A stretch of 64,000 nt of DNA. It comes from Salinibacter pepae (GTDB lineage: Bacteria; Bacteroidota; Rhodothermia; Rhodothermales; Salinibacteraceae). A program made the translations under genes and the position numbers. This document shows, piece after piece, positions 44,785 through 62,938 of the stretch (within the stretch, counting starts at the first letter, position 1; every line of letters begins with the position of its first letter). The stretch covers positions 1,550,001-1,614,000 of the forward strand of contig NZ_CAMTTE010000001.1 of NCBI RefSeq assembly GCF_947077775.1, in the 5' to 3' direction. The notes under the pieces are model-generated. The model searched no databases, was not told the origin of the DNA, and saw only the letters and a list, made by a program, of their open reading frames with translations.

Positions 44785-45735
44785 CTAGAAGAATGCTTTT
44801 TCCCGGTGTCCGTCCGAGGCGAGATTCGTGATCCGCACCCCGAACTGCTCGTCGATCACCACGGCCTCCCCCTCGGCGATCAGGCGTCCGTTGGCGTACA
44901 CCGACAACGGCTCCCCGACCATCTTCTCCAGCTCGACCACGCTCCCCGTCGTGAGCTTCAGCACGTCCGCCAGGGGCAGCTCGCGACGGCCCAGCTCCAC
45001 GCGCACCTCCAGGTCCACGTCCGCCAGCAGCTTGAAGGTGCCGGAGTCCCCGTCCCCGCTGATCTCCTCGTCGCCGAGCTCACTGAAGGCGGCGGGCGAC
45101 ACCTCGACGCCTTCCGACTCGTCCGCCGCCGACGACGGGGCCCCGCCGCCCGCCGGCGGAGACGCCCCCGACGACTGGTCGGCCCCCGCGGCGGCCTCTT
45201 GGGGGGCGCTCTCCGTCGTGGTCGACGCGTCCGACGACGCCTCGGCGCCGTCCGGCAGGAGCACGAGCCCGTCCAGCTCGCCGCCGTCCCGCTGCGCGGT
45301 GAACGGCACGAGCCACGCGGCCTCGTCCGGGGACGGGGGCGCCTGGCCCGGCGCGGCCGTGTCGAACTGCACCTCGGGCAGGGTCAGGCCCTCCTCCGCG
45401 AGGGTGCTCTGTACGGTTCCGAAGCCCTGCGACGAGATTTCCTGCATGAGGTCGAGGGCCCCGTCCGCGTCGGGCGCCATCTCTTCCCCGAACATGGCCT
45501 CCGAGAAGAGGGGCACCCAGTCCGGGTCCAGGGCCACGACCGCGCCCCGGTCGGCGGCGTACAGGACGAAGCGCTTCTTCAGGTCGTTCTGGAGCGCCTC
45601 CGTGGGCGACCGGTCGGCGATGTTCTTCGGGGCCGACGCGTCGAGCGGAATGTCATTCCCGCTCAGCTGCTCCAGCAGCGCTTCCAGCGCCGTTAGTGCC
45701 GTCTGTATGTGCGTCTTGAGCGTGTTCTGGGTCAT
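44785..45735 (-). CDS. fliN: FliN/FliY-type switch protein with an extra N-terminal domain
   Basis: The last 85 residues of this 316-residue protein form a SpoA domain of FliN (LLADVDLEVRVELGRRELPL, then GSVVELEKMVGEPLSVYANG and FGVRI). The first 155 residues form an alpha/beta domain starting MTQNTLKTHIQTALTALEAL, reminiscent of the CheC-like N-terminal half of FliY, but the CheC active-site motif is not evident. The middle is an acidic Ser/Ala/Gly linker. Its first 83 bases overlap the end of fliM in another frame. It forms the lower ring of the flagellar switch complex. Confidence 0.88.
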   Translation of the reverse strand: MTQNTLKTHIQTALTALEALLEQLSGNDIPLDASAPKNIADRSPTEALQNDLKKRFVLYAADRGAVVALDPDWVPLFSEAMFGEEMAPDADGALDLMQEISSQGFGTVQSTLAEEGLTLPEVQFDTAAPGQAPPSPDEAAWLVPFTAQRDGGELDGLVLLPDGAEASSDASTTTESAPQEAAAGADQSSGASPPAGGGAPSSAADESEGVEVSPAAFSELGDEEISGDGDSGTFKLLADVDLEVRVELGRRELPLADVLKLTTGSVVELEKMVGEPLSVYANGRLIAEGEAVVIDEQFGVRITNLASDGHREKAFF

Positions 45736-46771
45736 GGTCAGGGGAAGGGGTCAGAGAATCGAACTCGACGTTCTCGGGGGACTCCGCCGCCGTGATCCGC
45801 AGGGCCCGCTGCCGTCCCGAACGGCCCGGCACGGCCTCAAACTTCTGCTCGCCGTTTACAAACACCTTGATGGGGTCGTCGGTCTCGCGGTCAAGGGGGA
45901 TGACGTCGCCCTCCTGCAGCTGGGCCAGCTCGGTTACGGGCAGGACGGTGCGCCCCAGCTCGGCGCTTAGGTTCACCTCTGTCTCCCGCAGGGTCTCCTC
46001 GTACCGGTCTCGCACTGCAGGCTCGACGGCCGTCGTGGAGCTGGAAATCCACTGCTCCATGCCGGAGCGTCCCAGCATCTGCTCCAGCATGAGGTACGGG
46101 TAGCAGATGTTGATAAACGACGGCTCGTCGTAGACGCGCACGTCGAACGAGGCCACGAGCGCCGGCTCGGCCGCCGGGATGATCTGCACAAATTCGGCGT
46201 TCGACTCGAACGCGACCTCCTCGACCGACAGCTCGTAGGCCTTTCGCCAGGATTCCTCCAGCTTCCGGTACGCCCGCTTCATCACCCGGCTCATGATGCG
46301 CTGCTCGATCGGGGACACCTCACGGGACTCGTCCATCAGCTCCCCGTCGCCCCCCATGAGCTTCTCGATGGTGTACACCACCAGCCGCGGGTCGATCTCG
46401 AAAATCGACCGGTATTCGAGCTCGTCCTCGCGCAGGACGTACAGGGCCGACGGCGGGGCGCTCGACATCACGAACTCCGAGTAGAGCACCTGGTCGACGG
46501 CCGTCAGCGAAATGTCGACGATCGTGCGGAGCTGGGCGGAGAGGTAGACCGAGAGGTCCCGGGCAAACGACTCGTGTACCTGATTCAGGATGCGCTTCTG
46601 CGTCTGCGAGAACAGGCGCGGCCGCTTAAAATTGTACGGTTGCGCCTGCTTTTCCTTCTCCGCCTGCGTGTCCGGCTCGCCACCTGCACCTCCGGTGGGA
46701 TCGTCCTGTTCTTCCGCCTCGGCGTCGCCGAGAAGGACGTCAATTTCCTCCTGACTAAGGGGCTTCGACAT
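45653..46771 (-). CDS. fliM: flagellar motor switch protein FliM
   Basis: FliM binds phospho-CheY and turns the motor. The 372-residue protein opens with the CheY-binding peptide KPLSQEEIDVLLGD (residues 3-16), then an acidic spacer. The CheC-like middle domain starts FKRPRLFSQTQKRILNQVHE and includes SLTAVDQVLYSEFVMS. The C-terminal SpoA domain has VNLSAELGRTVLPVTELAQL. The last 28 residues (DHDPEHAQDAHTDGTN onward) are a low-complexity tail encoded in the 83-bp region shared with fliN. It follows fliL by 59 bp. Confidence 0.96.
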   Translation of the reverse strand: MSKPLSQEEIDVLLGDAEAEEQDDPTGGAGGEPDTQAEKEKQAQPYNFKRPRLFSQTQKRILNQVHESFARDLSVYLSAQLRTIVDISLTAVDQVLYSEFVMSSAPPSALYVLREDELEYRSIFEIDPRLVVYTIEKLMGGDGELMDESREVSPIEQRIMSRVMKRAYRKLEESWRKAYELSVEEVAFESNAEFVQIIPAAEPALVASFDVRVYDEPSFINICYPYLMLEQMLGRSGMEQWISSSTTAVEPAVRDRYEETLRETEVNLSAELGRTVLPVTELAQLQEGDVIPLDRETDDPIKVFVNGEQKFEAVPGRSGRQRALRITAAESPENVEFDSLTPSPDHDPEHAQDAHTDGTNGAGSAAGAAERE

Positions 46772-57391: not shown

Positions 57392-57482
57392 GACGGAGAA
57401 GACGTGCTGGCGGAACCAGTGAGGAGCAGTCGTGCGGGGATGGAGGTTTAGCGCCGGCCCGGCCCCATGAAAGCAGTCCCCC

Positions 57483-57538
57483 TTCCCGAGAATCCCTTCC
57501 CGAGAATCCCTTCCCGAGAATCCCTTCCCGAGAATCCC
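57483..57538. repeat. four tandem copies of a 14-bp unit with an internal dyad
   Basis: The unit TTCCCGAGAATCCC is repeated four times without mismatch in the gap between the lytic transglycosylase and the large chemoreceptor gene. Each unit holds the dyad TTC-CCGA-GAA. The array lies 92-147 bp upstream of the chemoreceptor start. It could be a cluster of operator sites or a variable-number repeat that changes promoter spacing. Confidence 0.85.
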
Positions 57539-57632
57539 TACTCGGAACGTCCTTCCGCTCGGGACGACCGTCTCGGGTCGGGAGGGCCACCCGCCCATTC
57601 CGGCAGCCGAGGGCCGCGGGGCGAAGGGACCA

Positions 57633-58316
57633 CTACGGGGCCCGGGCGTCCTGACGTCGGAAGAAGAGGTAGAAGGCGTTCACGCGGCGGATGAGCCCCA
57701 CCGTTTCCTCGTAGGGGGGCGTGCCGCGGTACTGGCGCACCCGGCCCGGGCCCGCGTTCCACGCCCCGACGGTCCGGGCCAGGTGGTCGCCGAACTCCGC
57801 GTTGTAGCGGTCGAGCAGGTAGCAGCCGATGAGGATGTTGAGGGCCGGGTCCTTCAGGTCCTCGGCCGATAGGCGGCGGAGGCGGCGTCGGTCGACGAAC
57901 CGGAACTCGTATCCGGTGTCGTAGAGGGCACGGGCGGCCCGGCGCCCCGTCTCGGGCCGGATCTGCAGGAGCCCGATGGCCCCGGCCGACGACACGGCGC
58001 GGGGGCGAGCGGCCGACTCGGCCGCAATCAGGGCCCGCACGAAATTGGTGCTCAGGTTGACCCCGCTTCGGGTGTACGCCAGCCCGGAGAAGTACCGGAC
58101 GTACGAGTCGTAGTCCCGGAGGCGACGCCGGGTCGAACGGGCCGGGGCCTTGGGGCGCGTGTTCTGGGCCACGTGCCGCACATGCGCGTCGACGTGGGGC
58201 CCCGTCTGCCCCCACGCGGGCGGAACGCCCGGAACGGCCCCCAGGGCGGCAAGGAGGAACAGCGCCCCGCCCGCGAGGAGAGCGCGGGTCAGAAACCGAG
58301 AGGTGTTGGGTGCCAT
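57633..58316 (-). CDS. lytic transglycosylase (SLT domain) of the flagellar cluster
   Basis: The 227-residue protein has a signal peptide ([20 protein letters not shown], cleaved near AWGQ). A SLT fold follows: [20 protein letters not shown] (the catalytic Glu in AAESA), [20 protein letters not shown], then [20 protein letters not shown] and [18 protein letters not shown]. These are the ES, GLMQ-like and AYNAG motifs of family 1 lytic transglycosylases, with GLLQI and AWNAG here. It cuts peptidoglycan, probably to let the rod and motor through. It lies after cheB, 86 bp away. Confidence 0.93.
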
Positions 58317-61536: not shown

Positions 61537-62514
61537 CTACTGAAAAAGCTCGTCGATTTCTTCCTGGGAGGCCGCCTCGCCCCCCTCGTCGCCCCCGCCG
61601 GAGCCGCCCCCGCCGTCGTCGAACATGTCGTCGATGTCGGACTGAGAAGCAGCCGTTCCGCCTCCGTTCGAAGAGGACGCCCCCGAGGACGCCCCGTTCG
61701 AGGACGCGGACTGAGACGAGGCGCCGTTTGTCCCGCCGCCGCTATTCCGCCCTGTCGGTGCGCCCCCGCCATCGCCCGCCACTACGTCGTCGGCCATGCG
61801 CTGCTTGTCGTCGGAGCGGTCGTACTCGGCATTCATGTTGAACGCGGCCGTGCGCGAGGGCTCCCCCGACGGCGCCTCGCTCCGGTCGGCCTGTCCCGTT
61901 CCGAGCCGGGCCAGCAGCGCGTCGATCCGGTCGCGGACCGTCTCGATGAGGTGATTCACGCTGGAGAGCTGCTGCTCGGTGACGTCCTGCACCTGCAGGG
62001 ACATCATAATCTGATTCATCCGGTCCCGGATGGGGGACAGGGAGTCGCGGGTCTCCTGGAGCTGGGCCGCCCACTCATCGCGCAGGTCCTGCTTCCGGCC
62101 CTGAATGCGCGCCACCTCGTCCAGCAGCTCCTCGTGCCCCTCGCCGAGCTCCTCCCGCAGCAGGGCCAGAACCTGGTTGTCGGCCTTCGCCTCCTTGGCG
62201 AACTGCTCCTCGAGCGTCGACAGCTGGTCCTCGATGCTCCGGAGGTCTTTCAGGACCTCGTCGGAGTGGTCGAGGATCTCGCTCGTGGCCACCTCGGTGG
62301 CCTCCGACACGCTTTTGAGGTGTTCGGTGGCGCGCTCCATGTGTCCGGAGCGCGTCCGGATGGTGGTGTTCACCTCTTCGAGAAGCACGGTGATGTCCTG
62401 GACGAAGTCGAAGAGCTCGTCCAGAAAGGGGGCAAACCGACGGCTGAGCACAAAGATCGCCTGCAGCTCGTCCAGCTTGTCCAGGAATTCTTGGACTTGC
62501 GGGCGCGATGACAT
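61537..62514 (-). CDS. CheZ-like CheY phosphatase with two C-terminal CheY-binding peptides
   Basis: The 325-residue protein has an antiparallel helical region (residues 1-205). It holds the CheZ catalytic segment IMMSLQVQDVTEQQLSSVNH, where QDVTEQ (176-181) matches the QDLTGQ that carries the catalytic Asp/Gln in CheZ. The region MERATEHLKSVSEATEVATS matches the CheZ helix start. From 205 to 285 is a Gly/Ser/Asn linker. The end carries two peptides like the FliM/CheZ CheY-binding helix: ASQSDIDDMF (289-298) and ASQEEIDELFQ (315-325). It lies between cheA and cheY, so CheZ is the best reading. Confidence 0.85.
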   Translation of the reverse strand: MSSRPQVQEFLDKLDELQAIFVLSRRFAPFLDELFDFVQDITVLLEEVNTTIRTRSGHMERATEHLKSVSEATEVATSEILDHSDEVLKDLRSIEDQLSTLEEQFAKEAKADNQVLALLREELGEGHEELLDEVARIQGRKQDLRDEWAAQLQETRDSLSPIRDRMNQIMMSLQVQDVTEQQLSSVNHLIETVRDRIDALLARLGTGQADRSEAPSGEPSRTAAFNMNAEYDRSDDKQRMADDVVAGDGGGAPTGRNSGGGTNGASSQSASSNGASSGASSSNGGGTAASQSDIDDMFDDGGGGSGGGDEGGEAASQEEIDELFQ

Positions 62515-62566: not shown

Positions 62567-62938
62567 CTACGCAGCCGCCTCGAGGCAGCTATCCACCTTC
62601 TCCTCGAGCACCTCCGGCTCGAAGGGCTTCACGATGTAGTTATTCACCTCCGCCTTCATGGCGGTCTTCACGTCCTCCTTCATGCCTCGGGTGGTAATCA
62701 TCAGGATCGGGAGGTCCGAGTACTCGGGGTGATTTCGGATGTTGCTAGTGAGGTCCACCCCGTTCATGTTGGGCATATTCCAGTCGGTGACGACGAAGTC
62801 CGGGGCGTTTTCCTCCAGCTTTTCCAGCGCGTCCTCGCCGTCCTCGGCCTCCACAATGTCGTCGTAGCCGATCTCCTGGAGGGCATTCCGGATGATGCGG
62901 AGCATCGTAGGCGAGTCGTCGACGATCAGGAACTTCAT
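62567..62938 (-). CDS. cheY: chemotaxis response regulator CheY
   Basis: The ATG at 62938 (MKFLIVDDSPTMLRIIRNAL) gives 123 residues, the normal size of a single receiver domain. The acidic pocket is Asp7, Asp8 and phosphoacceptor Asp52 (VVTDWNMPNMNG); the switch Thr lies in LMITTRG and the Lys in NNYIVKPF. It carries the signal from CheA to FliM at the motor and to the CheZ-like protein. It lies between cheR and the cheZ-like gene. Confidence 0.97.
   Translation of the reverse strand: MKFLIVDDSPTMLRIIRNALQEIGYDDIVEAEDGEDALEKLEENAPDFVVTDWNMPNMNGVDLTSNIRNHPEYSDLPILMITTRGMKEDVKTAMKAEVNNYIVKPFEPEVLEEKVDSCLEAAA

Follow-up and report, generated by a model that had tools for sequence, protein, structure and literature searches.

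The cheZ gene and its neighbourhood

The window analysed here, a stretch of 64,000 nucleotides from Salinibacter pepae, contains chemotaxis genes in the order cheR, cheY, cheZ, cheA and cheB, so that cheZ is flanked by cheY and cheA. The cheZ gene (61537..62514, minus strand) encodes a predicted CheY-P phosphatase of 325 amino acids with an extended C-terminal tail that carries several motifs. Its product passes the Pfam family PF04344 narrowly (score 32.8 bits, cut-off 30.7), and in a profile-profile comparison it matches gammaproteobacterial CheZ at E = 5e-9, the two active sites being aligned. No NCBIfam family reached its cut-off with this protein, and a search of the PDB from the single CheZ sequence retrieved no CheZ. 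The active-site segment, QVQDVTEQ (residues 174-181; 61972..61995, minus strand), contains the catalytic DxxxQ as D177 and Q181. It pairs with QDLTGQ of the gammaproteobacterial CheZ and is invariant in an alignment, here called A1, of the CheZs of Rhodothermia, a CheZ-like protein from Cloacimonadota and a CheZ from Asticcacaulis.

In the AlphaFold2 model of the CheZ monomer, which is of modest confidence (mean pLDDT 65, pTM 0.37), a helical hairpin (residues 4-123 and 125-203) is followed by a disordered tail. A Foldseek search with this model returned generic coiled-coil matches alone, none of them at E <= 0.001. A previous reading of this DNA, made from the sequence only, had called the protein CheZ-like, and this identity is borne out by the PF04344 match, the gammaproteobacterial profile, the DxxxQ and the chemotaxis context. 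Thus, judged by its sequence, the product of cheZ is a CheZ with an ordinary phosphatase core, and it is predicted to dephosphorylate CheY-P.

The presumed docking partner of CheZ is encoded by cheY (62567..62938, minus strand; PF00072). Its product matches solved CheY structures with E values down to 1e-39 and keeps the residues that align with D57, T87, Y106, K109 and K119 of E. coli CheY, the roles of which are general knowledge. The genome contains at least 24 receiver domains and only one close CheY; the next best receiver is 28% identical. A fused CheY-CheZ protein produced by read-through was also considered and set aside, since it would require a change of frame in addition to read-through of a stop and would not reflect the organism.

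Two further features lie inside the che cluster. An open reading frame that resembles a lytic transglycosylase by eye (57633-58316 of the window, minus strand) is located between cheB and a chemoreceptor gene. Between this frame and the chemoreceptor gene there is a perfect 14-bp tandem repeat of 4.3 copies (57480-57539); the longest open reading frame of the chemoreceptor runs through it, and the true start of the chemoreceptor is therefore probably downstream.

Motif copies in the C-terminal tail

The tail contains two distal motifs. Motif 1, ASQSDIDDMF, occupies residues 289-298 (61621..61650, minus strand), and motif 2, ASQEEIDELFQ, forms the last 11 residues of the protein, 315-325 (61540..61572, minus strand), with a start-to-start offset of 26 residues; these are the peptides, and the spacing, that the sequence-only reading had given. 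Both fit the pattern SQxx[IV]Dx[LM][LF] and both have a predicted helix (residues 291-299 and 317-324, respectively). They are separated by a 16-residue, Gly-rich acidic linker, DDGGGGSGGGDEGGEA (61573..61620, minus strand), whereas a 43-residue Gly/Ser/Asn linker (61651..61779, minus strand) precedes them; pLDDT is below 50 for residues 301-312 in the region of the former and for residues 248-290 in the region of the latter. In agreement with the same reading, the two elements belong by sequence to the class of CheY-binding motifs found in FliM and CheZ, and we infer from this that the canonical distal motifs dock CheY-P.

Chance is excluded as the origin of the doubled motif. When the 129-residue tail was shuffled in 200,000 trials, one strict motif arose with P = 1.6e-4 and two strict motifs never arose. 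In addition, when the strict motif was written as a degenerate DNA pattern, it matched the 3.6-Mb genome in two places, the start of FliM and the end of CheZ, and a reversed-pattern control gave 0 matches in the same genome. In a complete genome of the same order (G028), the pattern of the strict motif matches once in FliM and five times in CheZ.

The previous count of two motifs is nevertheless too low, because a third, degenerate copy that is conserved in the CheZs of the phylum lies on the proximal side of the Gly/Ser/Asn linker. The block FNMNAEYDRSDDKQRMADDVV (residues 225-245; 61780..61842, minus strand) consists of an anchor and this proximal motif, KQRMADDVV (residues 237-245), which fits the relaxed form of the pattern only. 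Within the block, Q238 and D242 are invariant in A1, and a helix is predicted at residues 235-247. The AlphaFold2 tail thus has exactly three short helices, one per motif copy. The Bacteroidota consensus of the block is FDxNAxYDxSxxxQxx[AV]Dxhh, and the Gln is located exactly 13 residues past the anchor Phe in 12 of 16 CheZs of Rhodothermia and in 21 of 29 other anchored CheZs of Bacteroidota. In 71 of 77 cases among Alphaproteobacteria, the Gln of the first motif is located exactly 13 residues past the Leu that opens LLNGP. All groups have their first motif at a similar distance from the catalytic Gln (medians 57, 58, 61 and 63).

Profile alignment with the gammaproteobacterial CheZ places the terminal motif of the latter on the proximal KQRMADDVV block, whereas alignment with the alphaproteobacterial CheZ prefers the distal motif instead. 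Since the two alignments disagree, any choice of one copy as the descendant of the E. coli-type motif is conjectural; the proximal degenerate copy appears to sit roughly in the register of that motif.

Selection on the motif copies and their distribution

Codon comparisons within the genus show that both distal motifs are under purifying selection, on a linker that drifts. Among four close congeners, pairwise comparison gives 19 synonymous and 0 nonsynonymous differences in motif 1 (pN 0, pS 0.59) and 9 synonymous and 0 nonsynonymous differences in motif 2 (pN 0, pS 0.25), where the counts are pairwise across related species and do not represent independent events. The linker ahead of motif 1 shows a pN/pS of 0.46 with insertions and deletions among the congeners, and both linkers vary in length. 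Motif 1 of a fifth congener, which is more distant, is ASPSDIDEMF, with Pro in place of Gln. Because nonsynonymous differences are absent from both motifs among the close congeners, both copies are taken to be maintained, and motif 1 is not a passive duplicate. Moreover, the two copies in the window are no longer recognisable as a tandem repeat at the DNA level, so that motif 1 is old as well as maintained.

A simpler explanation would be that only the last motif works and that the upstream copies are functionless by-products of slippage or duplication in a low-complexity tail. In its favour, copy number varies within genera, and the array in cheZ of the Rhodothermus type is a recognisable DNA tandem repeat with a period of 48. 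However, the codon substitution test on motif 1, in which the motif contrasts with its adjoining linker, disfavours it, as does the loss of any recognisable DNA repeat in the window, and we consider it very unlikely. In arrays of four or five near-identical copies, the between-copy pN/pS is 0.04-0.25 and the differences are mostly synonymous, so that each copy appears to be kept for the same ligand.

The sequence-only reading had said that common double motifs in CheZs of other phyla would speak against it, and counts in CheZ homologues show double motifs to be fairly common elsewhere and the rule in the window's own class; the doubled form is thus not an isolated one. At least two strict copies are present in 16 of 20 CheZs of Rhodothermia (range 2-5), in 17 of 89 CheZs from an even sample of Alphaproteobacteria (19%), in 4 of 32 CheZs of other Bacteroidota (12%), and in 0 of 30 CheZs of Gamma- and Betaproteobacteria, the proteobacterial samples being confined to the alpha, beta and gamma classes. 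Note that the gamma/beta set consists of best-scoring matches rather than a random draw; its relaxed count is exactly one in 30 of 30. Under the relaxed definition, which admits the proximal copy, at least two copies are present in 85% of the Rhodothermia and 72% of the other Bacteroidota CheZs. At the extremes, one CheZ in an Azospirillaceae genome has seven copies, and two CheZs of Rhodothermia have no strict motif, one of these having four variants that lack the Gln.

When 84,980 genomes were scanned for copies in tandem, 58 stretches were identified; they come from Rhodothermales, many Alphaproteobacteria and three MAGs, one each of Ignavibacteria (four copies), Cloacimonadota and Nitrospinota. 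Because it admits only arrays with Phe endings in which the first copy contains CAG, the scan undercounts; the CheZ of the window itself would escape it. Some arrays come from short-read assemblies, in which repeats can collapse, and their motif counts may be too low. In the CheZ tail of L008, a run of N stands in place of part of the motif array, and the motif arrays of two very similar MAG genes, L038 and L039, differ by two copies.

Taken from these comparisons, the doubled form is real and non-unique, being one state of a tail in which the number of motifs varies with lineage. No description of multi-motif CheZ tails was found in open-access full-text papers, a scope outside which most subscription papers fall. 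A CheZ with a single CheY-binding helix is well known; the multi-motif tail appears to be new within the open-access literature searched.

Proposed docking of CheY-P and comparison with known systems

CheZ of E. coli, through its single motif, and FliM, through its N-terminus, both dock on the alpha4-beta5-alpha5 face of CheY-P. E. coli CheZ owes its affinity for CheY-P mainly to the C-terminal helix, which is flexibly tethered, and CheY-P has been proposed, and modelled, to bridge CheZ dimers (PMC1447658); the domain layout of this protein has also been described (PMC7750401). How this CheZ, with its one tail motif, removes CheY-P quickly and perhaps cooperatively has been a matter of debate, which includes the dimer-bridging model (PMC1447658).

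The best reading of the protein in the window, and one that we regard as probable, is an ordinary CheZ core with a multivalent docking tail for CheY-P, in agreement with the previous suggestion that one chain could hold two CheY molecules. Each canonical motif would dock the alpha4-beta5-alpha5 face of CheY-P, and a CheZ dimer, with its two catalytic sites, would then have four or more tail sites. Motif 1 has Met for Leu and a Ser after SQ, however, and its affinity may therefore differ. Such a tail could raise the local supply of CheY-P and its capture rate and thereby make dephosphorylation faster or more cooperative, and CheY-P might also bridge or cross-link adjacent CheZ dimers. In Rhodothermia, the docking sites would have been multiplied by gain and duplication of copies, and the proximal copy would have decayed.

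Alternatively, the motifs may divide the labour, one binding CheY-P and the other or others a different partner, such as another receiver, a CheY-like receiver domain of another protein or a localisation factor. SDIDDMF and EEIDELF differ consistently, and each retains its own identity across the genus. The number of receiver domains in the genome would also allow such a division. However, the genome has a single close CheY and the copies in sister lineages are near-identical, both of which favour one ligand over several, and we consider a division of labour rather unlikely. A pairing of two CheYs with the two CheZ motifs was rejected, since no second close CheY was found in the genome.

The competing CheY-binding motif in this genome is the N-terminus of FliM, MSKPLSQEEIDVLLGD, encoded by fliM (45653..46771, minus strand). 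The tail might chiefly titrate CheY-P off FliM as a buffer or sponge instead of feeding the active site. Its motif is closer to the FliM N-terminus than to the helix of gammaproteobacterial CheZ, SQEEID being common to FliM and motif 2, and the same motif is arrayed in proteins that have no phosphatase core (see below). On the other hand, CheY-P tethered to the tail would be able to reach the active site of CheZ, so that buffering without hydrolysis is unlikely on this protein, and this explanation seems to us very improbable.

Outside CheZ, arrays of the motif occur in several unrelated proteins. Zinc-ribbon proteins (PF13717) that apparently have a transmembrane segment carry 5-7 near-identical copies of SQDDIDALF in Cohaesibacter and other Hyphomicrobiales (L104, 5216-6613, plus strand; L105, L078, L063, L057, L052 and L056). 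The neighbours of the L104 gene include an ABC-transporter ATPase, an acyltransferase and a DUF218 protein, and no chemotaxis gene is present among its identified neighbours. A zinc-ribbon protein from Nitrospinota (L067, minus strand, at about 6.0-8.0 kb), which also has a transmembrane segment, contains about five exact copies as well as several degenerate ones; a FliL-like C-terminal end, suggested by eye, is unsupported by Pfam. The C-terminal tail of a CheY-like receiver protein (L291, 970-1740, plus strand; the same gene as L062) contains ESQDDIDNMF four times and could dock other receivers or the protein itself. In the zinc-ribbon and receiver arrays, the between-copy pN/pS is 0 to about 0.1, with nearly all differences synonymous. 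A DUF2497 (PopZ-family) protein encoded in a Methylopila MAG (L091, frame starting near 400-900) contains VGQDDIDALF twice and might connect CheY with a polar organiser. A small conserved alphaproteobacterial protein with a YLNHFNE... core and no Pfam match has one terminal motif in L302 (1000-1527, plus strand) and three in L073.

The motif therefore marks a putative CheY-docking function rather than FliM or CheZ per se. As a tentative generalisation, which we think doubtful, arrays of the FliM type might be a general module for multivalent docking of CheY-P: in CheZ they would give a cross-linked cluster driven by CheY-P and a cooperative switch-off, and in other proteins they would recruit or buffer CheY-P elsewhere in the cell. 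Natural CheZs with zero to seven motifs provide a series in which the number of docking sites can be related to cooperativity, speed of adaptation and motor bias.

Among known systems, the gammaproteobacterial CheZ (PF04344; 1KMI, with CheY) resembles the CheZ of the window in its hairpin, which is predicted in the latter, its DxxxQ, its flexible linker and a C-terminal motif of the same class (PMC7750401, PMC1447658). It differs in motif number, since gamma- and betaproteobacterial CheZs have one motif, whereas the window CheZ has two canonical distal motifs and one degenerate proximal motif. The N-terminal peptide of FliM shares the core SQEEID[V/E]L; it is present as a single N-terminal copy in the FliM of this genome, in the switch ring, whereas CheZ, a phosphatase, carries the motif repeatedly at its C-terminus. 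The alphaproteobacterial CheZs of Asticcacaulis (L058), Ponticaulis (L096) and Oleispirillum (L102) likewise combine a proximal motif with at least one distal SQDDIDALF on a linker, although their proximal motif is canonical and follows LLNGP, while that of the window CheZ is degenerate and follows FNMNAEYD. Finally, the CheZs of the Rhodothermus type (L004, L006) belong to the same bacterial class and have the same distal motifs, but theirs form five near-identical copies, spaced at 15-16 residues, that are still a tandem repeat in the DNA.
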